From the NCBI RefSeq assembly GCF_004785955.1, contig NZ_ML214300.1, positions 885,789 through 949,788 of the forward strand: 64,000 bases of DNA, written 5' to 3'. Positions 6,779 through 54,855 of this stretch are shown here, in pieces. The notes beneath the pieces are model-generated. The model was not told the DNA's origin, made no database searches, and saw only the letters and a list, made by a program, of their open reading frames with translations. This stretch comes from Halostella litorea. Lineage in GTDB: Archaea; Halobacteriota; Halobacteria; Halobacteriales; Natronoarchaeaceae. The translations under genes and the position numbers were made by a program. Every line of letters starts with the position of its first letter. Position 1 is the first letter of the stretch.

Positions 6779-6830
6779 CGCGCTACGCCGCCGGCCGGAC
6801 GCACCGCTGGGAAACGAGTTCCGAAGAAGC

Positions 6831-6902
6831 GCCCGAGGCGGGATTTGAACCCGCGTCACGACCGTGACAGGGTCGTATGATGGGCCACTACACCACCCGG
6901 GC
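6831..6902 (-). tRNA. tRNA-Asp (GTC), copy 1
   Basis: 72-nt cloverleaf on the minus strand. The acceptor GCCCGGG pairs with CTCGGGC (one G-T), the anticodon loop is CTGTCAC giving anticodon GTC, and the T-arm GCGGG TTCAAAT CCCGC is standard. No CCA is encoded. A TATA-like TTAATAAG lies at about 6933-6940 on the coding strand's upstream side. The sequence is identical to the copy at 7508-7579. Confidence 0.96.
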
Positions 6903-7435: not shown

Positions 7436-7507
7436 GCGACGACGTTGCCGCGTCCCGGTACTTGAACGCCCGGACGGGGCGCTACGGCGTTCGTTCGTCG
7501 CAAAAGC

Positions 7508-7579
7508 GCCCGAGGCGGGATTTGAACCCGCGTCACGACCGTGACAGGGTCGTATGATGGGCCACTACACCACCCGGGC
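7508..7579 (-). tRNA. tRNA-Asp (GTC), copy 2
   Basis: A 72-nt minus-strand gene identical over its whole length to the copy at 6831-6902 (anticodon GTC, same arms, no encoded CCA). Sequence identity ends at the gene boundaries on both sides. An upstream TATA-like AAGTCTTAAGG lies at 7611-7620. The two copies form a 72-bp direct repeat enclosing about 605 bp. Confidence 0.96.
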
Positions 7580-31454: not shown

Positions 31455-31526
31455 GGGCTCGTAGATCAGTGGCAGATCGCTTCCTTCGCAAGGAAGAGGC
31501 CCCGGGTTCAAATCCCGGCGAGTCCA
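31455..31526 (+). tRNA. tRNA-Ala (CGC)
   Basis: 72-nt cloverleaf: acceptor GGGCTCG with CGAGTCC (one G-T), D-arm GATC/GATC, anticodon stem CTTCC/GGAAG with loop TTCGCAA (anticodon CGC, reading GCG), T-arm CCGGG TTCAAAT CCCGG. No encoded CCA and no intron. Its 3' end marks the start of an AT-richer accessory segment, as expected for an integration hotspot, but I found no second copy of the 3' end within 3 kb. Confidence 0.95.
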
Positions 31527-32168: not shown

Positions 32169-33656
32169 CTAGCTCCAAGCCACAATCCCATCTGCGCTGA
32201 ACGTGTAGAGTGTCCCATCAGCAACAGCGATATCGGAATGAGATTCCACAGGTCCGAAGGAGCCTTTGACATCCCCGTTTTCGCGATCGATTACCGCGAC
32301 TTCAGAGTTTTCACGCTCTTGTGATGGCCTGACGTGAGCGTAGAGATGGTCATTATCGACGATCATGGGGGTAAACACACGAGCGTACGTTCCAATCTGG
32401 GATCGCCATACTACGGAGCCATCGCTCCGATCTAATGCAACGAGGTTATGTCCAGTATAGAGCTGTTCTCGCCACCTCTCGGTGTCTTCCTGTGAAATTG
32501 TCATGTCCTCCGGAGTCAAAAACCCAAGTCCGTAATAGACGTGGTCGCGGTCGACCGTCACAAACGATGTACCGCCAGCACCAATAGCGTCATCGATAGC
32601 GTCTGTCTCATACGCGTGTGTCCACTGTTCACTCCCATCCTCGATCGATAGAGCGTATATCTTCCGGTCCGGTATGCCCAGAGCTTCGGCGGTGTCCTCG
32701 CGGGAACTCCTCTGGGAAATATACACAGTATCGTCAACTATCGTCGGTATCGGAGATATCGAATGAGCTATTTCTTCCGTCCACTTTACCGACCCGTCCT
32801 CCGTATTCAGAACGGTCAGTTGCTTATTTCCGTCAGACCCAGCGACCCCGGAATTATACACTGCAATCGCGTTGTTCCCGACAGATGGAATCAGCTGGTT
32901 GGGAGAGATCTCTCGGCTCCATTTTTCACTCCCATCAGACGTTGAAACCGCGAGTACCTGTCCTTCGGTAAAGACGTACAATACACCATCATGGACCACT
33001 GGATAATATCCACCATGTGCTACTCCAGGAAAGTCTGTTTGCCAACCTATCTCTCCGTTTTCCCGCGACAGCGATGCGAAGTGGAGTTTTTCGCTGTCCT
33101 CACTGCTACTGCCCCAAACTACATATAGATTGTTCGGACCGAGACACCTAGTCGGCGACCGGGTCGCATCGGATCGGACCCCACCCTCTTGTTCAACGAT
33201 AGTACGCCGCCAGCGCTCGCTCCCATCTTCGCGGGAGAGCGAATATGCATACAGTTTGAATTTCGGGGGGTCACTTTCATATGGGGACGCATTCCCCGAG
33301 ACCTCATACATCGCATTGTCCCCGATTAGCGGTGCTAGGGGGTTCTGGGGTAAAATAATTCCATCTCGAAGTGAGGCGGTGAAGCTATGAGTTGCGTCAG
33401 CAGTCGGTCCACCGGATAAACTGAGCCCCGCGTTTGCTGACGATCCGTGTCGACTGGGCCATTCAGATGTCCCCAATTTCGATTCTTCTGAATCCGATTC
33501 GGAGTCCCCGGATTCTGATGTATTCACCATCGATTCTTCTGAATCCGATTCGGGGCTCTCGGAGCCTGATGAATCTGTACTCTGACATCCGGCTAGCAAT
33601 CCGATCCCGGCACTACTGGCCAGCAAAAACTCCCTCCGAGATCCATGGTATCCCAT
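32169..33656 (-). CDS. Tat-exported PQQ-like beta-propeller lipoprotein
   Basis: A 495-residue surface lipoprotein. The Tat motif RREFL (residues 7-11) and lipobox LAGC (Cys about residue 24) give a folded, lipid-anchored exported protein. Residues about 28-65 are a Ser/Glu/Asp-rich linker with an internal repeat. The rest is a PQQ/BamB-like eight-bladed propeller with repeated DGSEKW, DGSVKW and DGSVVW motifs and 'VYIS/LYVF' strands. No dehydrogenase residues are certain; a ligand-binding or scaffolding role is as likely. DNA is clearly less GC-rich than its neighbours, suggesting recent transfer. A TATA-like TTTATTGG lies about 28 bp upstream. Confidence 0.8.
   Translation of the reverse strand: MGYHGSRREFLLASSAGIGLLAGCQSTDSSGSESPESDSEESMVNTSESGDSESDSEESKLGTSEWPSRHGSSANAGLSLSGGPTADATHSFTASLRDGIILPQNPLAPLIGDNAMYEVSGNASPYESDPPKFKLYAYSLSREDGSERWRRTIVEQEGGVRSDATRSPTRCLGPNNLYVVWGSSSEDSEKLHFASLSRENGEIGWQTDFPGVAHGGYYPVVHDGVLYVFTEGQVLAVSTSDGSEKWSREISPNQLIPSVGNNAIAVYNSGVAGSDGNKQLTVLNTEDGSVKWTEEIAHSISPIPTIVDDTVYISQRSSREDTAEALGIPDRKIYALSIEDGSEQWTHAYETDAIDDAIGAGGTSFVTVDRDHVYYGLGFLTPEDMTISQEDTERWREQLYTGHNLVALDRSDGSVVWRSQIGTYARVFTPMIVDNDHLYAHVRPSQERENSEVAVIDRENGDVKGSFGPVESHSDIAVADGTLYTFSADGIVAWS
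33481..33553. repeat. Two direct 22-bp repeats in the lipoprotein linker
   Basis: The 22-bp unit beginning GATTCTTCTGAATCC occurs at 33481-33502 and 33532-33553, inside the Ser/Asp/Glu-rich linker of the lipoprotein gene. It encodes an ESDSEES-type repeat on the minus strand and looks like an in-gene duplication that can change linker length. Confidence 0.75.
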
Positions 33657-44820: not shown

Positions 44821-45903
44821 ATGACGGTCATCGAGTCGGTCCACGCGGACCACGACGCGACCTTCGGCGAGCGGGGCGGCCGCCGCGTCGCCCTGGAGTA
44901 CGGCCGCCGCGAGCGGGAACACCGCGCGGCCCGGAAGGTCGTCGGGGTCACCGAGATGGCGTACGGCGTCGTCGTCGTCACGGGCGACGACCGCGTCGAC
45001 TACGTCGACAACGCCGTCTCGAACCGCGTCCCCGACGCCGACGGCGAGGGGGTCTACGCCCTCCTGCTGGACCCGCAGGGCGGCATCGAGACGGACATGT
45101 ACGTCTACAACGCCGGGGACAGGCTCCTGCTTTTCACGCCGCCCGGCCGCGCCCGCCCGCTGGCCGAGGAGTGGTCGGAGAAGGTGTTCATCGAGGACGT
45201 CGAGATAGCCGTCGCGACCGACGATTTCGGCACCTTCGGCGTCCACGGCCCGAAGGCGACCGAGAAGGTCGCCAGCGTCCTCAACGGCGCGGCGTCGCCC
45301 GACGAGCGGCTCACGTTCGTCCGCGGGTCGATGGGCGACGCGGGCGTCACCGTCGTCCGGACGGACGCGCTCGCCGGCGAGGAGGGGTACGAGGTGATCT
45401 GCGCCGCGGGCGACGCCGGCGAGGTCTTCGACACGCTGGTGAACCACGGCCTCAACGCCGCGCCGTTCGGCCGGCGGACGTGGGAGGCGCTCACGCTCGA
45501 AGCGGGGACGCCCCTGTTCGAGACGGAACTGGAGGGGCGGATCCCGAACGTCGTCGGCCTCCGCAACGCGCTGGACTTCGAGAAGGGCTGTTACGTCGGC
45601 CAGGAGGTCGTCTCCCGCGTCGAGAACCGCGGGCGGCCGAGCCAGCGCCTCGTCGGGCTCCGACCCGACGCCCTCCCGGAGGCCGGCGCGGCCGTGTTCG
45701 CCGGCGACGAGGCCGTCGGGGAGGTGACCCGCGCCGCCGAGAGCCCGATGCTCGACGCGCCGCTGGCGCTGGCTCTGGTCGACTTCGACGCGCCGGGGGA
45801 CGGCCTCGCCGTCCGCGTCGACGGCGAGGAACTGCCCGCCGAGCGGGTCGACCTGCCGTTCGTCGAGGGGAGCGACCGGTCGGCGCGGCTGCCGGCGTAC
45901 TGA
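44821..45903 (+). CDS. YgfZ/GcvT-like folate-binding protein
   Basis: A 360-residue protein of the aminomethyltransferase fold. The YgfZ signature KGCYVGQEVVSR (near residue 257) distinguishes it from true GcvT; YgfZ uses folate to support certain iron-sulfur enzymes. Seen as well: FGVHGPKATEKVASVLNG and RTWEALTLEAGTPLFETELEGRIP. No other glycine-cleavage genes are nearby, which favours the YgfZ reading. The C-terminal beta barrel is complete. It ends 125 bp before the KaiC-family gene. Confidence 0.86.
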   Translation: MTVIESVHADHDATFGERGGRRVALEYGRREREHRAARKVVGVTEMAYGVVVVTGDDRVDYVDNAVSNRVPDADGEGVYALLLDPQGGIETDMYVYNAGDRLLLFTPPGRARPLAEEWSEKVFIEDVEIAVATDDFGTFGVHGPKATEKVASVLNGAASPDERLTFVRGSMGDAGVTVVRTDALAGEEGYEVICAAGDAGEVFDTLVNHGLNAAPFGRRTWEALTLEAGTPLFETELEGRIPNVVGLRNALDFEKGCYVGQEVVSRVENRGRPSQRLVGLRPDALPEAGAAVFAGDEAVGEVTRAAESPMLDAPLALALVDFDAPGDGLAVRVDGEELPAERVDLPFVEGSDRSARLPAY

Positions 45904-45998: not shown

Positions 45999-46008
45999 CT
46001 ATATTAAA
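45999..46008 (+). promoter_or_regulatory. TATA box of KaiC/LOV kinase operon
   Basis: CTATATTAAA, 21-30 bp before ATG 46029, the strongest TATA element in the window; predicts a leaderless mRNA. Confidence 0.7.
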
Positions 46009-46028: not shown

Positions 46029-47483
46029 ATGGATTCTGACGTGACGGGCCGCGTCGGGACCGGGATCGCCGACCTCGACGCGGTCCTGAACGGCGGCCTC
46101 GTCCCGGGTCGGGCGTACACGGTCCGCGGGGAGCCCGGCACGGGGAAGTCGATCCTCGGGATGCACTTCCTGACGGCCGCGCCGGACGACGCCGCGCTGT
46201 ACATCAACCTGGAGGAGTCGACGGCCAACGTCCGCGAGAACGCCGCGTCGCTCGGGATCGACCTCTCCGACGTGGCGTTTTGCGACCTGAGCCCCGAGTC
46301 GGACTACTTCCGGGACAACCGGTCGTACGACCTCTTCGACCCGGACGAGGTCGAGGGCGAGGCGGTGAGCGACCGCATCGGCGAGGCGATAGAGGCGACC
46401 GACCCGGACCGGGTGTTTCTGGACCCCGCGACCCACCTCCGGCAGTTCGCCGCCGACGAGTCCCGGTTCCGCAAGGAGATGGCGTCGCTCCGGCGGTTCC
46501 TCGCCGAGCGGGACGCGACCGTCCTCTTTGCGACCCAGCCGACCACGGCACACTCCGACGAGACGCTCCAGTTCCTCACCGACGGGACGATCGAGCTCAA
46601 CCGCGGCTCGAAGGGACGCACGGTAGAGGTGACGAAGTTCCGGGGCAGCGGCTACCGGGGCGGCGAGCACACGCTCGAGATATCGGGCGAGGGGATGCGG
46701 GTCTACCCCAAGCTTGCCCCCGGCGACCACGACCGGACGTTCAAGCCGGACCCGATCTCCTCGGGCGTTCCCGAACTCGACGCGATGCTGTCAGGCGGCC
46801 TCGAACGCGGCACCGTCTCGGTCATCAGCGGCTCGCCGGGCGTCGGCAAGACGACGACCGCGGCCCACTTCGCCGCGGAGGCGGCGGCCCGCGGCGAGCG
46901 GGCGGCGCTCTACCTCTTCGAGGAGGCGGCCGAGACGTTCCGCCACCGCTCGCGGTCGATCGGCCTGCCCGTCGAGGACCGGGAGGCCGACGGCACGCTG
47001 GAGACGGAGGAGGTGGAACCCCTGGCGCTCTCGCCGGACGTGTTCGCCGCCAACGTCCGGACGGCGGTCGAGGAGCGCGACGTAGAGGTCGTCGTGATCG
47101 ACGGCATCTCCGGCTACCGGATGTCGATCCTCGGCGACGAGACCGGGCTGTTGCGGGAGCTCCACGCGCTCTGTCGCTACCTCCGGAACATGGGCGTCAC
47201 CGTCGTCCTCGTCGACGACATCGACTCGGTCACCGGCGAGTTCCAGCCCACGTCCCGGCGGATCAGCTACCTCGCGGACAACATCGTCTTCCTCCGGTAC
47301 ATCGAGTACCAGGGGGAGATCCGGAAGGCGGTCGGCGTCCTGAAAAAGCGGGTGAGCGACTTCGAGCCGACGCTCCGCCGGTTCAGGATCACCGGGGACG
47401 GGCTTGCGATCGGCGAACCGCTCACCGGGCTCCGGGGCATCCTCACGGGGACGCCGGAGTGGACGGACGACGATGGCTCGTAG
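46029..47483 (+). CDS. Double-domain KaiC/RadA-family ATPase
   Basis: A 484-residue protein with two RecA-like domains, the KaiC layout. CI: Walker A GEPGTGKS (residues 34-41) and LEES after the next strand. CII: Walker A GSPGVGKT (268-275) and FEEAAETF with the KaiC Glu pair. The C-terminal part (YIEYQGEIRKAVGVLKKRVSDFEPTLRRF) aligns with KaiC CII. At the KaiC phosphosite region it reads RISYLADNI: Ser413 is kept but the following Thr is Tyr414. Known archaeal homologues are signalling ATPases. Its last 11 bp overlap the LOV kinase start; the pair probably works together. Confidence 0.88.
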   Translation: MDSDVTGRVGTGIADLDAVLNGGLVPGRAYTVRGEPGTGKSILGMHFLTAAPDDAALYINLEESTANVRENAASLGIDLSDVAFCDLSPESDYFRDNRSYDLFDPDEVEGEAVSDRIGEAIEATDPDRVFLDPATHLRQFAADESRFRKEMASLRRFLAERDATVLFATQPTTAHSDETLQFLTDGTIELNRGSKGRTVEVTKFRGSGYRGGEHTLEISGEGMRVYPKLAPGDHDRTFKPDPISSGVPELDAMLSGGLERGTVSVISGSPGVGKTTTAAHFAAEAAARGERAALYLFEEAAETFRHRSRSIGLPVEDREADGTLETEEVEPLALSPDVFAANVRTAVEERDVEVVVIDGISGYRMSILGDETGLLRELHALCRYLRNMGVTVVLVDDIDSVTGEFQPTSRRISYLADNIVFLRYIEYQGEIRKAVGVLKKRVSDFEPTLRRFRITGDGLAIGEPLTGLRGILTGTPEWTDDDGS

Positions 47484-49560
47484 CGACGACCCGGCGAAGC
47501 TGCTGGCCGTCCTCGGCGACGCCCGGAACCGGGAACTGCTGGTCGAGTGGCTCCGGGGGACCGGCTGGGAGGTCACGGTCTCGGAGACGGTGACGGCGGG
47601 CGAGTGGGACCTCTGTCTCGTCGACGACCGGGGGCTCGCCGCCAACGTGGACGTGCTCCGGGCGCGCAAGGCGGACGCCGCGCCCGTCTCGCTGCCGGCC
47701 GTCCTCGTGACGCGTGACCCCACCGACGTCTCTGACCACCCGGTCGACGACCAGATCGCGATCCCGACGCGGAAGCGGTTCCTCCGCCGCCGCATCGAGA
47801 CGCTCCTGCGGACGCGTGACCTCTCGGTCCAGCTGCGGTCCAGCCGCGAACGGTACCGCCGGCTCGTCGAGTGTCTCCCGGAGGCGCTTTTGATCGTCGT
47901 CGACGGGCGGATCGAGTACGCGAACGCCGCCGCCACCGACCTCCTCGGCGCGGGGACCGTCAAGGAACTCGTCGACCGGCCGTTCGACCGATACGTCGAC
48001 GTCGGCGGGGCTGGGGACGCCGCGTCGCTGGCCGCCGCCGCCACGCGGGCGTCCTTCGAGGAGGTCGAGATCCACCCCGTTGCCGGCGAGCGGCGGCTGG
48101 GCGAACTCGCCGCGGTCCGGATCGTCCACGAGGGCCGGCCGGCGACGCAGGTCATCCTCCGGGACCTGACCGCCCGACGCGAGCGCGAGACGCGCCTCCG
48201 GCTGTACGAGCGCGCGCTCGACGAGACGATTCAGGGCGTCACCATCGCGGACGCCGAGCAGGACGACCTGCCGGTCATCTACGCGAACGAGGCGTTCACC
48301 CGGATCACGGGGTACGACATGGCGGACGTCCTCGGGCGCAACTGCCGGTTCCTCCAGGGGCCGGACACCGACCCGGACACCGTCGACCGCATCCGCGAGG
48401 CGATAGCGGCCGCGGAGCCGGTCTCCGTCGAGATCCGCAACTACCGGGCGGACGGCACCCGGTTCTGGAACGCGCTCGACGTCGCGCCGATACGGGACGC
48501 GGACGGCGACGTGACCCACTACATCGGCCTCCAGCGTGACGTGACGGAGCGAAAGGAACGCGAGCGGGCGCTGGAGCGCTACGAGACCGTCGTCCAGACG
48601 GCCGCCGACGCCATCTACGTCCTCGACGGCGACGACACGATAGTCGAGGTCAACGACGCGCTGACCTCTCTCACCGGCCGGTCGCGGGGGACGCTCCTCG
48701 GGGCGACGCTCGACGCGTTCCTCGACCCGGCCGACGTCCCCGCCTGCCGGCTGGACCCCGACGAGTCCGTCACCGAGCGGACGGTCGAGGTCGAAGTCGC
48801 CACCCGGACGGGGAAACGGCGGCACTGCGAGGTGACCGTTGCCCCGCTCCCCGGCGAGTCGTTCCACGGGACCGTCGGCGTGGTCCGGGACATCTCGAAC
48901 CGCCGGCGGCGCGAGCAGCAACTCTCCGTCCTCGACCGGGTGCTGCGACACAACCTCCGGAACAAGATGACGGTGATCTGCGGGCGGGCCGAGATGATGG
49001 ACGAGAACACCCCGCCCGAGGAGGTCCGCGACCACGCCAGGACGATCCAGAGCACCGGCGAGGACCTGCTCTCGCTCAGCGAGACTGCCCGGTCGGTCCA
49101 GTCGATCATCGACGAGGACGGGGGCGGGACCCGCGAACTCGACCTGTCGCCGCTCGTCCGGACCACGGTCGCGGCGTTGCGGGACCGCTATCCGAACGCC
49201 GAGATCGCGACCGACGTCCCCGACGAGGCGACCGTGCGTGCCCACGACTCGGTCATCACCGCGCTGAGCGAGGTCGTCGAGAACGCGATCGTCCACAACG
49301 ACAGCGACGTCCCCCGCGTCACCGTGGAGGTGACGGTGGGGGCCGACACGGTCGCCGTCGAGGTCGCCGACAACGGGCCGGGGATCCCCGACAGCGAACT
49401 CGACGTGCTGTCCACGGACCTCGAGACGCCGCTCGAACACACCGACCGCCTTGGGCTCTGGCTCATCCGTTGGGCGCTCAGCCGCTCCGACGGCACCATC
49501 TCCTTCGAGGGGAACGAGCCCCGGGGCACGGTCACGCGGATCGAGTTCGGGAGGCCGTAA
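47473..49560 (+). CDS. LOV/PAS sensor histidine kinase
   Basis: A 695-residue cytoplasmic kinase without membrane segments. Domains in order: degenerate receiver-like region (1-110), PAS (about 125-235), LOV (245-360), PAS (365-475), phospho-acceptor helix with His493 in VLRHNLRNKM, and ATPase domain (560-690; N box ENAIVHND, G1 DNGPGIPD). The LOV core is complete: GRNCRFLQG with adduct Cys291, Asn323, Asn333, Gln354. A blue-light flavin sensor is therefore likely. The ATG at 47473 overlaps the KaiC-like gene by 11 bp; no response regulator follows, and no light receptor of another type is adjacent. Confidence 0.92.
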   Translation: MARSDDPAKLLAVLGDARNRELLVEWLRGTGWEVTVSETVTAGEWDLCLVDDRGLAANVDVLRARKADAAPVSLPAVLVTRDPTDVSDHPVDDQIAIPTRKRFLRRRIETLLRTRDLSVQLRSSRERYRRLVECLPEALLIVVDGRIEYANAAATDLLGAGTVKELVDRPFDRYVDVGGAGDAASLAAAATRASFEEVEIHPVAGERRLGELAAVRIVHEGRPATQVILRDLTARRERETRLRLYERALDETIQGVTIADAEQDDLPVIYANEAFTRITGYDMADVLGRNCRFLQGPDTDPDTVDRIREAIAAAEPVSVEIRNYRADGTRFWNALDVAPIRDADGDVTHYIGLQRDVTERKERERALERYETVVQTAADAIYVLDGDDTIVEVNDALTSLTGRSRGTLLGATLDAFLDPADVPACRLDPDESVTERTVEVEVATRTGKRRHCEVTVAPLPGESFHGTVGVVRDISNRRRREQQLSVLDRVLRHNLRNKMTVICGRAEMMDENTPPEEVRDHARTIQSTGEDLLSLSETARSVQSIIDEDGGGTRELDLSPLVRTTVAALRDRYPNAEIATDVPDEATVRAHDSVITALSEVVENAIVHNDSDVPRVTVEVTVGADTVAVEVADNGPGIPDSELDVLSTDLETPLEHTDRLGLWLIRWALSRSDGTISFEGNEPRGTVTRIEFGRP

Positions 49561-49696: not shown

Positions 49697-50776
49697 CTAC
49701 GAGAGCAGCGTCCGGAGGTGCTCCCGCGAGAACACCGACGTGGGCCGGTCCATGTGGACGCCGATCTCCCCCGAGAGCGCCCGCAGCCCCGCGTGCTGGA
49801 CCGGCTCCGGGAGCGAGTACGCCCGGCGGAGCCAGTGGCCCAGCCGTATCTCCCGCGATAGCTCGTCCCGCCAGGCCCGCTCGTAGGCCTGCAGCGTCGA
49901 CGGCTCGGTCGGGTCGACCGTCCGGACGGCGTGGTCCGCGCAGGTCATCCCATAGAGGATCCCGCCGCCGGTGAAGGGCTTGGTCTGGGCCGCCGCGTCG
50001 CCGAGCAGGAACCCCCGCGTGCTCGTCACGCGATCCGGCGGGCCGACCGGGATCGCACCCGAACAGCGGCGGTGCGGGTCGACGCCGTACGCCTCGACCA
50101 GCGCGTCGAACCGCGCGCCCACGTCGTCGCCCGGCGGGGCCGCAAGCCCGTACTCCACGCCGGCGTTCCCCCGCGGGATGCGCCACGCGAAAAAGCGCGG
50201 CGCGGTGAGGTGGACGTCGACGAACTCGCCGTCGTCGGCCGCGGCGTCGAACCCCAGCACGCCGTGGAGCAGTTCGTCCGGCTCCGACAGGTGGAGTTCG
50301 TCCCGGACGCGCGACCGCGGGCCGTCGCAGCCGGCGACCATCCGCGCCGCGAACGTCTCCGTGCCGTCCGGCCCGCGCGCCGTCACCTCCACGCGGTCGT
50401 GGTACTCGTCGACGGCGGTGACGGTGTGTTCCTCGCGCAGGTCAGCGCCCGCGTCCCGCGCCAGCCCCGCGAGGTGGCGGTCCAGCCCCACGCGGTCGAT
50501 GACGTTCGACACGGCCTCCTGCTTGTAGAAGCGGTGCGCGTCGCTGCCGGGGCCGCCGACGTGGAAGCGCGCGCCCACGATCTCGTTCTGGAGGAGGTCG
50601 TCGCGCGCGTCCGGGGCGGTGAAGTCCCAGACGTCGGTGCTGACGTGCCCGGAACAGGCCAGCGGCTCGCCGACCGTCCCCTGCTCCAGCGCCAGCACGT
50701 CGTGGCCCGCCTCGGCGGCCCGGCGGGCGAACCGCGACCCGGCGGGGCCGGCGCCGACGACGACGAAGTCGTACAT
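49697..50776 (-). CDS. Geranylgeranyl reductase-family flavoprotein
   Basis: A 359-residue FAD-dependent oxidoreductase. FAD-binding loop VVGAGPAGSRFARRAAEAGHDVLALEQ at the N-terminus, ACSGHVS cofactor segment, and the second motif RGFLLGDAAAQTKPFTGGGILYGM near residue 250. The family reduces the isoprenoid chains of archaeal lipids or related prenyl compounds; this copy is shorter than the main digeranylgeranyl-glycerophospholipid reductases and may act on a carotenoid or menaquinone side chain. The ATG at 50776 precedes the first strand. It is convergent with the kinase gene and shares its direction with the BNR gene. Confidence 0.85.
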   Translation of the reverse strand: MYDFVVVGAGPAGSRFARRAAEAGHDVLALEQGTVGEPLACSGHVSTDVWDFTAPDARDDLLQNEIVGARFHVGGPGSDAHRFYKQEAVSNVIDRVGLDRHLAGLARDAGADLREEHTVTAVDEYHDRVEVTARGPDGTETFAARMVAGCDGPRSRVRDELHLSEPDELLHGVLGFDAAADDGEFVDVHLTAPRFFAWRIPRGNAGVEYGLAAPPGDDVGARFDALVEAYGVDPHRRCSGAIPVGPPDRVTSTRGFLLGDAAAQTKPFTGGGILYGMTCADHAVRTVDPTEPSTLQAYERAWRDELSREIRLGHWLRRAYSLPEPVQHAGLRALSGEIGVHMDRPTSVFSREHLRTLLS

Positions 50777-50826
50777 GTCAGTACGGTCGACGGGCGGCGG
50801 TAAATCCTTCCCGGTCGCCGAGCGGG

Positions 50827-51819
50827 TCAGTCGACGACGACCAGGCCGCGGCAGGTGTCCCCGTCGAACCGCTCCCACGGCACGGGGACGCGCTCCCAGC
50901 CGTCGCCCGCGTCCGGCGTGCGGTAGAGCCCGCGGTTCGTCGCCGCGAAGCACTCGCCGGCCGCCGTGCCCGACGCCAGCACCGCGCGGACGACGCCCTC
51001 GCCCGCGGGGAACCCGTCGAGCCGCTCCCACGAGCCGCCGCGCTTGCGGTAGAGGTACGACTCCGCCCGCGACGCGGTGTGGGCCGCCGACGCGCCGCTG
51101 GCGGCCGACAGGAGCACCGTCTCGGGGTCGGCCGGGTCCAGCGCGAGGCTCCAGCAGTAGCGGTGGTCGAGGCCGTCCTGCGGGTGGTCCCAGGTCTCGC
51201 CGCCGTCGCGCGTCTCGGCGTAGCCGTCGCCCGCGGCGCTCCAGGCGCGGTCCGGCGCGTCGGGATGCGTCGCAAGCGTGTGGTTGTCGCGGCGCGACCC
51301 CGGTGGACGTTCCTGCCACGTCTCGCCGCCGTCCTCGGTGAGCACCAGCGCGCCGGCCTCGATGCCGACGTACAGCCGGTCGGCGTCGTGGGGGTCCGGC
51401 TCGACCCACCGGACGTGGTGCGTGTCCGGCCGCGGCGGGAACGACCACTCGCCGGCCGACGGCAGGTCGGTCAGGCCGCCGACGCGCGTCCACGAGTCGC
51501 CGCCGTCCGTCGAGCGGTAGAGCCGCGACGGCTCGGTTCCGGCGTACACGACGTCGGGGTCGTGTGGCGAGACGGCCACCGAGAGGACGGCGTCCTGATC
51601 GATGGCGTCCGCGCCGACGCGCTCGAACGACTCGCCGCCGTCGGTCGTCCGGTGGAGCCCGTCGCCGAACGTGCCGACGAACGCCCTGTCGGGGACCGCC
51701 TGCGACGCGTCGACGCACTCCAGGTCGTACCCGTCCAGTCGACGGGCGTCGATCCACTCCGCGCCCTCCCGTTCGGCGACCACGAGGGCGTCCCGCATCG
51801 CGGCGTACACGGTCGTCAT
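50827..51819 (-). CDS. BNR/WD40-like propeller protein
   Basis: A 330-residue soluble protein of repeated beta-propeller blades with Asp-box-like words: TTDGGESFERV, STDGGDSWTRV, TEDGGETWQER, TRDGGETWDHP and TPDAGDGWERV. These are the sialidase/VPS10-type BNR repeats, which shape a scaffold, not proof of glycosidase activity. No signal peptide is seen. ATG 51819 is preferred over an in-frame start 27 bp upstream. It probably shares a transcript with the flavoprotein downstream (50-bp spacer). Confidence 0.8.
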   Translation of the reverse strand: MTTVYAAMRDALVVAEREGAEWIDARRLDGYDLECVDASQAVPDRAFVGTFGDGLHRTTDGGESFERVGADAIDQDAVLSVAVSPHDPDVVYAGTEPSRLYRSTDGGDSWTRVGGLTDLPSAGEWSFPPRPDTHHVRWVEPDPHDADRLYVGIEAGALVLTEDGGETWQERPPGSRRDNHTLATHPDAPDRAWSAAGDGYAETRDGGETWDHPQDGLDHRYCWSLALDPADPETVLLSAASGASAAHTASRAESYLYRKRGGSWERLDGFPAGEGVVRAVLASGTAAGECFAATNRGLYRTPDAGDGWERVPVPWERFDGDTCRGLVVVD

Positions 51820-51903
51820 GGGCGGGCGTAGGAGACGGACCGACAAAGGGCTATGCTGAAACGGATTCCTGAAAGAAGCGAGAGGGGAACGCGAAGGCGC
51901 TGC

Positions 51904-54855
51904 TCAGTCGTCGCTCGGCGCCTTCACCGGCTCCTTGCGCTGGCCGCGCGGGCCGTCGAGGTCCACGTCGGGGAGGAGGTCCCGGAGGTAGCGCCCGGTG
52001 TGGGAGCCGTCGTTTCGCGCGACGGCCTCGGGCGTGCCGGTGGCGACGATCTCGCCGCCGTTCTCGCCGCCCTCGGGGCCGAGGTCGACGATGTTGTCGG
52101 CGTTTTTCACGAGGTCGAGCTCGTGTTCGACGACGACGACGGTGTTCCCGTTGTCGACGAGGCGCTGGAGCACCTCGATGAGCTTGCGCTCGTCGGCGGA
52201 GTGCAGGCCGGTCGTCGGCTCGTCCAGCAGGTACAGCGTGTCGCCGGTCTGCTTTTTCCCGAGTTCCTCGGCGAGCTTGATGCGCTGGGCCTCGCCGCCC
52301 GACAGCGTCGTCGAGGGCTGACCGAGCTTCATGTAGTCAAGCCCGACGTCCTTCAGCAACTGGAGCCGCCGGGAGAGGCGGGTGTCGGCCTCGAAGAAGT
52401 CGTAGGCCTCCTCGACGCTCATCTCCAGCACGTCGGCGATCGTCTTGCCCTTGTACGTGACGTCCAGCGTCTCGTCGTTGTAGCGCGCGCCGTCGCACTC
52501 CTCGCAGGGGACGTACACGTCCGAGAGGAAGTTCATCTCGATCTTGACGGTGCCCTGCCCGCCACACTCCTCGCAGCGGCCGCCTTTCACGTTGAACGAG
52601 AAGCGGCCCTTCTCGTAGCCCCGTTGCTTGGAGAGTTTCGTCTCGGCGAACAGTTCGCGGATGTAGTCGAACACGTCCGTGTACGTCGCGGGGTTCGACC
52701 GCGGCGTGCGCCCGATGGGGCTCTGGTCGATGAGCCGAACGGTCTCGATCTCGTCGACGCCGTCGATCCCGTCGTGGTCGCCGGGGTCGACCGAGTGGTT
52801 GTCGTTCATCTCGCGGGCCAGGCCCTTGTAGAGGATCTCGTGCATCAGCGTCGACTTGCCGGAGCCGGAGACGCCCGTGATGGCCGTGAAACAGCCCACC
52901 GGGATCTCGACGTCGAGGTCGGCGAGGTTGTGCTGGCGCGCGCCGCGGACGGTGAGCGCGCCGTCCGGTTCGCGGCGCTTCTCGGGGACGGGGATCTGCT
53001 TGCGCCCCGCGAGGTAGTCGCCGGTGATCGAGTCCTCGCAGTCGATCACCTCGTCGGTGGTGCCCTGCACGACGACCTCGCCGCCGCGCTTGCCGGGACC
53101 GGGGCCCATGTCGACGACGTTGTCGGCGCGGCGCATCGTCTCCTCGTCGTGCTCGACGACGATCAGCGTGTTGCCGAGGTCGCGCAGTTCCTCCAACGTG
53201 TTCAGCAGGCGGTCGTTGTCGCGCTGGTGGAGGCCGATGGAGGGCTCGTCGAGCACGTAGAGCACGCCGACGAGGCCGGAGCCGATCTGGGTGGCGAGGC
53301 GGATGCGCTGGCTCTCGCCGCCCGACAGCGTCGCCGCCTCGCGGTCCAGCGTCAGGTACTCCAGGCCGACCTCGGTCATGAACCCGAGGCGGGCGCGGAT
53401 CTCCTTCAGTATCTCCTCGGCGATCTTGCGGTCGCGGTCGGACAGGCCCGCCTCCATCTCCTCGAAGTGGTCGAGGGCGTCGCCGATGCTCATGCGGTTG
53501 ACCTCGGTGATCGACGAGTCGTCGACGAGGACGGCGCGGGAGGCCGGCTTGAGGCGCGTGCCGTCGCAGGCCGGGCACTCGGTGACGGTCATGTAGTCCT
53601 CGATGTGGTCCCGCGTGCTGTCGCTGTCCGTCTCGACGTGGCGGCGCTCCAGGTTGGGGATGACGCCCTCGAACGGCTTGGTCTTGCGGCGGACGCCGTT
53701 GCTCGTCTGGCGCTTGAACACCACGTCCTCCGTGGTGCCGTAGAGGAAGGCGTCCTGCACGTCGGGGGCAAGCTCCTCGAACGGCGTCTCGACGCTGACG
53801 CCGAAGTGCTCGGCGACCGCGTCGAGGCGGGTGCGGTAGTACGAGCGGTTGTAGCTCCAGGCCTCGAAGGCGTTCTTCAGCGGCTTCGAGGGGTCCTGGA
53901 GGACAAGATCCTCGGAGACCTCTTTCGTCTCGCCGATCCCCTCGCACTCCGGACACGCGCCGTGGGGGCTGTTGAACGAGAACGAGCGGGTCTCGATCTC
54001 CGGGAGGTCGATCCCGCAGTGGGTGCAGGCCAGATCCTCGGAGAACTCGACGACGAGGCGGTCGTCCGTCTCGCCCGCGAGGTCGCCGGTCGAGCGGGCC
54101 TTCGTCCCGCCGAGTTCGGCGTCCTCCGGCGGGTCCGGCAGGATGACCTTGAGGACGCCGTCGGCCTCCTCCAGGGCAGTCTCGACGCTGTCGGCGATCC
54201 GCGAGCGCGCGTCCGGCGCGACCGTCACGCGGTCGACGATCACGTCTATCGTGTGGTCGTAGTTCTCGTCCAGTTCGGGCCGGTCCATCGTGAGGTCGTA
54301 GCGCTCGCCGTCGACCTCGACGCGGCTGTACCCCTCGCTCACGAGTTCGTCGAACCGGTCCTCGAACGCGCCCTTCTGGTCGCGGACGACCGGCGCGGCG
54401 AGCTTTGCGCGCGTCCCCTCGGGGAGTTCGAGCAGGCGCGTCACCATCTGCTGGGCGGACTGCTCGCCGACCTCGCGGCCGCACTCGGGACAGTGGGGCG
54501 TCCCGACGCGGGCGTACAGCAGGCGGAGGTAGTCGTGGAGTTCGGTGACCGTCCCCACCGTCGACCGGGGGTTGTTCGCGGCGTTCTTCTGGTCGATGGA
54601 GATAGCCGGCGAGAGCCCCTCGACGGTCTCGACCTGCGGCTTGTCCATCTGCCCGAGGAAGTTGCGGGCGTACGCCGACAGCGACTCGATGTAGCGGCGC
54701 TGCCCCTCGGCGTACACCGTCTCGAACGCGAGTGAGGACTTGCCCGACCCCGACAGCCCCGTCACGACGTTGAACTGCTCGCGGGGGATCTCGATGTCGA
54801 GGTCTTTGAGGTTGTTCTCCTCGGCCCCTCGGACCTCGATGTAGTCCTTGCTCAT
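51904..54855 (-). CDS. uvrA: Excinuclease ABC subunit UvrA
   Basis: A 983-residue DNA-damage recognition ATPase. Two ABC modules: Walker A GLSGSGKSSLAF near residue 34 and GVSGSGKSTLMHE near 665. ABC signatures LSGGESQRIRLA and LSGGEAQRIKLA, Walker B YVLDEPSIGLHQRD and YLLDEPTTGLH. Zinc pairs CTHC/CPEC and the CEEC/CEEC modules are present. Haloarchaea use bacterial-type UvrABC excision repair; no uvrB or uvrC is in the window. The start ATG 54855 gives the standard SKDYIEVRGAEENNLKDLD N-terminus. Strongly conserved and complete. Confidence 0.97.
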   Translation of the reverse strand: MSKDYIEVRGAEENNLKDLDIEIPREQFNVVTGLSGSGKSSLAFETVYAEGQRRYIESLSAYARNFLGQMDKPQVETVEGLSPAISIDQKNAANNPRSTVGTVTELHDYLRLLYARVGTPHCPECGREVGEQSAQQMVTRLLELPEGTRAKLAAPVVRDQKGAFEDRFDELVSEGYSRVEVDGERYDLTMDRPELDENYDHTIDVIVDRVTVAPDARSRIADSVETALEEADGVLKVILPDPPEDAELGGTKARSTGDLAGETDDRLVVEFSEDLACTHCGIDLPEIETRSFSFNSPHGACPECEGIGETKEVSEDLVLQDPSKPLKNAFEAWSYNRSYYRTRLDAVAEHFGVSVETPFEELAPDVQDAFLYGTTEDVVFKRQTSNGVRRKTKPFEGVIPNLERRHVETDSDSTRDHIEDYMTVTECPACDGTRLKPASRAVLVDDSSITEVNRMSIGDALDHFEEMEAGLSDRDRKIAEEILKEIRARLGFMTEVGLEYLTLDREAATLSGGESQRIRLATQIGSGLVGVLYVLDEPSIGLHQRDNDRLLNTLEELRDLGNTLIVVEHDEETMRRADNVVDMGPGPGKRGGEVVVQGTTDEVIDCEDSITGDYLAGRKQIPVPEKRREPDGALTVRGARQHNLADLDVEIPVGCFTAITGVSGSGKSTLMHEILYKGLAREMNDNHSVDPGDHDGIDGVDEIETVRLIDQSPIGRTPRSNPATYTDVFDYIRELFAETKLSKQRGYEKGRFSFNVKGGRCEECGGQGTVKIEMNFLSDVYVPCEECDGARYNDETLDVTYKGKTIADVLEMSVEEAYDFFEADTRLSRRLQLLKDVGLDYMKLGQPSTTLSGGEAQRIKLAEELGKKQTGDTLYLLDEPTTGLHSADERKLIEVLQRLVDNGNTVVVVEHELDLVKNADNIVDLGPEGGENGGEIVATGTPEAVARNDGSHTGRYLRDLLPDVDLDGPRGQRKEPVKAPSDD

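Follow-up and report, generated by a model that had tools for sequence, protein, structure and literature searches.

This study concerns a pair of genes from the haloarchaeon Halostella litorea, found in a stretch of 64,000 nt of contig NZ_ML214300.1 (the window, whose positions serve for all coordinates given here). The first gene encodes a double-domain ATPase of the KaiC family, and the second, which overlaps it, encodes a histidine kinase (HK) with a LOV domain between two PAS domains. I conclude that the pair probably belongs to a widespread module, as a haloarchaeal branch provided with a light sensor, in which light and the state of KaiC jointly control one kinase; the meeting of the two signals in a single kinase is plausible. 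The argument turns on a domain that was overlooked in an earlier note made from the sequence alone (the original prediction): the first 124 residues of the kinase form a predicted pseudo-receiver (pREC), a domain found almost exclusively in the neighborhood of this family of KaiC. The positions of all features are collected in Table 1.

The KaiC subfamily is present in 227 of the 392 genomes of the order. I compared the neighborhoods of kaiC at 84 further haloarchaeal loci, which with the window make 85. At 81 of these, representing 36 of 37 genera, the adjoining gene has a receiver-like N-terminus. These partners comprise 61 HKs, 11 regulators of the GAF-BAT-HTH_10 type, and 9 short open reading frames (ORFs) with no recognized output domain, some of which match receivers only weakly. 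Only about 1.4 of the 85 loci would be expected to have an adjoining HK by chance, and so the pairing with 61 cannot be ascribed to chance. The original prediction had called for a survey of this kind and would have yielded to a pair confined to the present genome, its genes having random neighbors elsewhere; that possibility is excluded by the conservation of the pair far beyond Halostella litorea. Bacterial versions, with KaiC identities of 43-51%, occur in Nostoc, Brasilonema, Chloroflexi, Actinoplanes, and Gemmatimonadetes, among others.

The N-terminal domain of the kinase escapes the usual models: Pfam Response_reg detects 4 of 84 pREC members, and that of the window is not among them. 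AlphaFold2 nonetheless gives it a confident receiver-like fold, with a predicted local distance difference test (pLDDT) value of 95, and the PDB neighbors of the predicted fold found by Foldseek are receivers (template modeling score, TM, up to 0.78), with which a profile search concurs. In the alignment of 115 domains of the family, the position of the phosphorylated aspartate is kept but the catalytic lysine and the acidic pair are lost, hence the name pseudo-receiver. A fold like that of SasA or KaiB was considered for the haloarchaeal domain and is not supported, the Foldseek matches being receivers.

The distribution of pREC follows that of KaiC closely. In a set of 26 genomes, 23 of the 25 strong pREC matches adjoin a KaiC of this family, within about 1.2 kb, and all 22 KaiC loci have a pREC nearby (one of them weak), while only one strong pREC was counted over the eight genomes that lack this KaiC. 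The same pREC stands before either HK cores or GAF-BAT-HTH_10 outputs and is therefore the constant element, behind which sensors and outputs change. Because it is nearly exclusive to the neighborhood of this KaiC, I consider it the best candidate for the domain that docks KaiC. Over all pairs, moreover, its divergence correlates with that of KaiC (r 0.56) more strongly than does the divergence of the HK core (r 0.32). A natural fusion of KaiC and pREC, which might have served as proof of interaction, was found at none of the compared loci.

The two proteins might instead be merely co-expressed neighbors, the kinase an ordinary sensor of light or redox state and KaiC a protein with other targets, such as archaella, pili, or DNA. 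Motility and cell shape are where CirA and CirD of Haloferax volcanii, single-domain relatives of KaiC, have their roles (PMC13286277). I think this account very unlikely, since the genes have stayed adjacent in different domains of life and in either orientation, and since genomes that lack this KaiC have almost no pREC.

The case for light begins with the LOV domain of the window. Its core (motif GRNCRFLQ) retains the complete flavin-contact set of Cys, Asn, Asn, and Gln, and its closest solved relatives are the LOV domains of blue-light HKs and of YtvA. Light input to the kinase is supported as a prediction because these residues are complete. LOV partners are concentrated in two clades of the KaiC tree. 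One of these, of 29 rows and including the window, has a support of 98 by the approximate likelihood ratio test of Shimodaira-Hasegawa type (SH-aLRT), and 27 of its 29 partners are LOV-type and co-directional; the other, of 20 rows from Halorubrum and others (SH-aLRT 99), has divergent kinases, nearly all with LOV. A LOV-type domain is found in 8 of the 22 KaiC partners from the 26 genomes, as compared to 52 of about 707 other HKs (Fisher p = 1.7e-4). At the 85 loci, 36 partners are of LOV type, and the residue at the adduct position is Cys in 25 of them, Pro in 9, Met in 1, and Phe in 1. With LOV enriched in the partners, yet Cys in 25 of 36, light input is a recurrent option of the module, not a constant.

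Several observations weigh against joint control by light and KaiC. Genomes and loci were chosen by similarity to the KaiC of the window, and the proportions lean to its own clade. Two strong pREC genes among the 26 genomes have no KaiC neighbor. When LOV partners alone are considered, pREC and the HK core follow KaiC equally well, and inside this group co-evolution specific to one domain is therefore not proved; I have set it aside as proof of docking, since it is supportive over all pairs but not discriminating here. No response regulator adjoins the pair. Finally, the KaiC proteins closest to that of the window by identity have partners whose LOV domains keep N, N, and Q but carry Pro for Cys, and most Pro-type LOVs form one subclade, in which Cys has been lost, inside the Cys-bearing LOVs of the LOV tree. 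The light input of the original prediction thus stands for the window, where cysteine and contact residues are complete, but the sensing of light is no fixed property of such pairs, given the Pro of its closest relatives.

The same replacement lends itself to another account of the domain, as a flavin-based sensor of redox state or oxygen in which the Cys and Pro forms both act via reduction of the flavin and light is at most incidental, KaiC and kinase still forming one module. A haloarchaeal Pro-LOV (of BAT) does bind flavin and respond to reduction (PMC4682037), and Met, Phe, and His are also found at the adduct position. The cysteine, however, is kept in most of the LOV-type haloarchaeal partners, including that of the window and nearly all those of the divergent clade, and the LOV core of the window resembles those of photoactive LOV kinases. 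I regard this account as unlikely, though by no means far-fetched.

Three sets of loci deserve mention beside the pREC and LOV families. The strong pREC genes without KaiC lie at G316:C1:1296158 and G024:C1:1910185, the first sharing its ORF with a LOV-type domain (1297004); their products are possible partners in trans. Pro replaces Cys in the LOV partners of L033-L036, L038-L040, L067, and L074, which for the most part retain N, N, and Q, and these are candidates for natural Cys-less LOVs. At L054, L056, L057, L059, L066, L072, L076, L080, L085, L087, and L089, the gene 3' of kaiC encodes not a kinase but pREC-GAF-BAT-HTH_10, a putative DNA-binding regulator that would give the pseudo-receiver a direct transcriptional output.

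Turning to KaiC itself, the protein contains two stretches of PF06745, each with the Walker A motif that the original prediction had placed there, and both motifs and the catalytic Glu pairs are intact and conserved among its relatives. KaiC structures are matched over the whole length, the best match in PDB being 8zn5 (E 3e-57). The protein departs from clock KaiC in several respects. It scores 148.6 bits against the NCBIfam clock model TIGR02655 (circ_KaiC), as compared to a cut-off of 546, S-Y replaces S431-T432, and the alignment shows it ending just past the CII core with no KaiA-binding C-terminal tail. Searches found neither kaiA nor kaiB in this genome, and KaiB was above the cut-off in none of 17 relatives. 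The absence of both genes, together with the wide conservation of the pair, supports the proposal of the original prediction that KaiC and kinase make up a signaling unit without KaiA or KaiB.

Nothing in this analysis shows clock function. One might still suppose that the module is a timer, in which autophosphorylation of KaiC at S-Y serves as an hourglass or clock and the LOV kinase provides light input and output. A timing role has been suggested for the kaiC-HK pair of bacteria (PMC3164672). KaiC proteins of other archaea autophosphorylate without KaiA (PMC5520375), and cir transcripts track light-dark cycles (PMC3941300). The lack of KaiA, KaiB, and the C-terminal tail, the Tyr in place of T432, and the low score against the clock model all speak against a timer, and no free-running rhythm has been reported for this KaiC family in the literature surveyed; I give the idea little credence.

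For joint control of the kinase by light and KaiC, I infer the following binding, direction of control, and path of phosphate. A double-ring KaiC ATPase, independent of KaiA and KaiB, would be docked by a cytosolic HK. KaiC would form a hexamer whose conformation tracks ATP/ADP and the phosphorylation of S413 and Y414, and the pseudo-receiver at the N-terminus of the kinase would bind it and relay its state to the kinase core. LOV, lying between pREC and the core, would form a flavin-cysteine adduct in blue light and bias that same core, and the phosphate of His493 would pass to a separately encoded response regulator. A bolder scheme, which seems to me quite improbable, would have a dedicated pseudo-receiver LOV kinase read the ATPase or phosphorylation state of the KaiA/KaiB-free KaiC, and have blue light set that state by way of the kinase, giving light-entrained timing or a day/night switch in archaea, with the same plug driving a kinase or an HTH_10 factor according to lineage.

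The locus bears on whether KaiC serves archaea in day/night control and on how KaiC is linked to signaling in the absence of KaiA and KaiB. It offers a candidate light input and a candidate docking domain specific enough for pull-down, and its natural variants (LOV with Cys or Pro, output through HK or HTH_10, and gene pairs that are co-directional or divergent) could separate the roles of light and KaiC in tractable haloarchaea.

The two-gene module of KaiC and kinase is known, widespread, and ancient. De Luca et al. (2011; PMC3164672) described a "dark-blue" kaiC-HK group, in which a kaiC of S-Y type precedes the gene of a specific HK whose N-terminus is receiver-like, without KaiB. They proved co-transcription of Rta_04330 (KaiC) and Rta_04340 (HK) in Ramlibacter tataouinensis, proposed that the HK binds KaiC and that the pair may be an hourglass, and suggested a SasA/KaiB-like fold for the N-terminal domain, RtaNt (PMC3164672). 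Like those pairs, that of the window has the S-Y/T-Y/S-F phosphosite profile, an HK directly downstream, no kaiB, and an HK that opens with a domain which, as RtaNt is described to be, is receiver-like. It differs from the Ramlibacter pair in being haloarchaeal, in the inserted LOV, and in an N-terminal domain with a predicted receiver fold rather than a SasA/KaiB-like one. In Haloferax volcanii, cirC (52.7 kDa) adjoins a kinase annotated as FixL, and cir transcripts respond to light-dark cycles (2014; PMC3941300). Judged from the published description, this too is a double-domain haloarchaeal KaiC beside a kinase; the upstream gene, unlike in the window, is orc2. With such pairs in print since 2011 and 2014, the pair cannot be called undescribed, a point that the original prediction had left undecided.

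Other systems share parts of the design. Haloarchaeal LOV proteins from Lake Diamante, in a text that makes no mention of KaiC (PMC12202551), and BAT-LOV (PMC4682037) resemble the present set in their REC/PAS-LOV-HK architectures and in an adduct position taken by Cys or by Pro/Phe. LOV histidine kinases (YtvA-type LOV, blue-light-activated HK) share the complete LOV core and the HK output. The kinase of the window has in addition two more PAS domains, pREC, and a KaiC partner, and it does not reach the whole-protein equivalog cut-offs of NCBIfam (YtvA_fam, 170.2 vs. 250; BluLightHisKinLov, 144.5 vs. 450). Cyanobacterial KaiABC with SasA and CikA likewise couples a double-domain KaiC fold to an HK, and in that system SasA docks via a KaiB-like domain, whereas CikA has a pseudo-receiver, which binds KaiB. 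In 2017 Makarova reportedly cast KaiC-like ATPases as archaeal signaling hubs that join two-component parts. A search of the literature for KaiC with LOV in haloarchaea or archaea, or with LOV and histidine kinases, found no such pair described, not even in a review that treats KaiC, LOV, and archaea together, nor were the pREC rule and the LOV clades found in the literature searchable here. Within those bounds, three things look new: the LOV-equipped haloarchaeal clades, a pseudo-receiver that hardly occurs away from the neighborhood of this KaiC, and outputs that change between kinase and HTH_10.

A check letter by letter bore out the LOV residues and His493 of the original prediction, as well as the overlap of the genes, and Pfam placed its two additional PAS domains, one before and one after LOV. 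The presence of HATPase_c (49.5 bits, clearly over the cut-off) and of the phospho-acceptor His marks the protein as an HK, although HisKA, at 20.0 bits, falls under its cut-off of 26.9. No membrane domain was matched in the HK, with no formal test of solubility made.

An AT-rich element lies at a comparable distance from the kaiC ATG in many relatives and, with the TATA-like element of the window, suggests a leaderless transcript for kaiC, as expected in haloarchaea. The overlap leaves no intergenic room for a second promoter. The genes around the pair are common to 8-13 loci of the window's clade, in several families, and for this reason the locus must be old in that clade, and recent mobile insertion of the pair is rejected there. 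Within the genus, however, this KaiC is missing from at least two complete genomes, and in one relative its place is taken by a KaiC of the divergent clade. Neither a conserved third gene of the operon nor a response regulator was found at the compared loci, where the common neighbors lie upstream or are convergent.

Table 1. Features of the kaiC-kinase locus and its surroundings (window positions).
Feature	Position	Strand	Basis
GcvT-type aminomethyltransferase gene, 5' neighbor, outside module	44821..45903	+	syntenic in 13/28 compared loci of window's KaiC clade
TATA-like element (tatatta), ~26 bp 5' of kaiC ATG	46000..46006	+	sequence
kaiC, 484 aa, double-domain ATPase of the KaiC family with S-Y phosphosite profile; KaiA-binding tail absent	46029..47483	+	sequence, Pfam, NCBIfam, structure match
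Walker A of CI, GEPGTGKS, residues 34-41	46128..46151	+	sequence, alignment
Walker A of CII, GSPGVGKT, residues 268-275	46830..46853	+	sequence, alignment
S413-Y414, corresponding to S431-T432 in cyanobacterial KaiC	47265..47270	+	S-Y invariant in 20 aligned relatives
kaiC stop/HK start overlap, 11 bp	47473..47483	+	sequence
pREC-PAS-LOV-PAS HK gene, 695 aa, ATG at 47473	47473..49560	+	ORF, domain searches, predicted fold
Predicted pREC, HK residues 1-124, KaiC-partner domain, phospho-Asp position D51	47473..47844	+	alignment, AlphaFold2, Foldseek, profile search
PAS domain 1	47848..48186 (approximate ends)	+	Pfam
LOV domain	48208..48582	+	Pfam, solved-structure matches, residue check
LOV residues C291; N323; N333; Q354	48343-48345; 48439-48441; 48469-48471; 48532-48534	+	letter-by-letter check
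PAS domain 3	48586..48912 (approximate ends)	+	Pfam
Phospho-acceptor His493 in RHNLRNK	48949..48951	+	sequence check; HisKA match under Pfam cut-off
HATPase_c catalytic domain	49249..49548	+	Pfam
Convergent flavin adenine dinucleotide (FAD) oxidoreductase, BNR/sortilin-type protein, UvrA, outside module	49697..54855	-	syntenic in 8-12 loci of window's clade

Some further loci may be recorded. The cyanobacterial loci L124, L128, L131, and L136 (Nostoc, Aphanothece, Brasilonema, and Rhizonema) have a KaiC of this same non-clock subfamily, with about 48% identity to that of haloarchaea, and it has its own REC-HK. At L144, L145, and L159 (Halospina, Halomonas, and Halothiobacillus), the KaiC partners are of about 770-900 codons and have a pREC N-terminus but no match to HK or HTH_10. 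Elsewhere in the window, the GC content, 0.70 for the genome, falls to 0.52 between 32000 and 34000, where a PQQ/BamB-type beta-propeller protein (32169-33656, - strand) is encoded near a tRNA-Ala gene (31455-31526). Two tRNA-Asp (GTC) genes lie on the - strand at 6829-6902 and 7506-7579, with about 600 bp between them.

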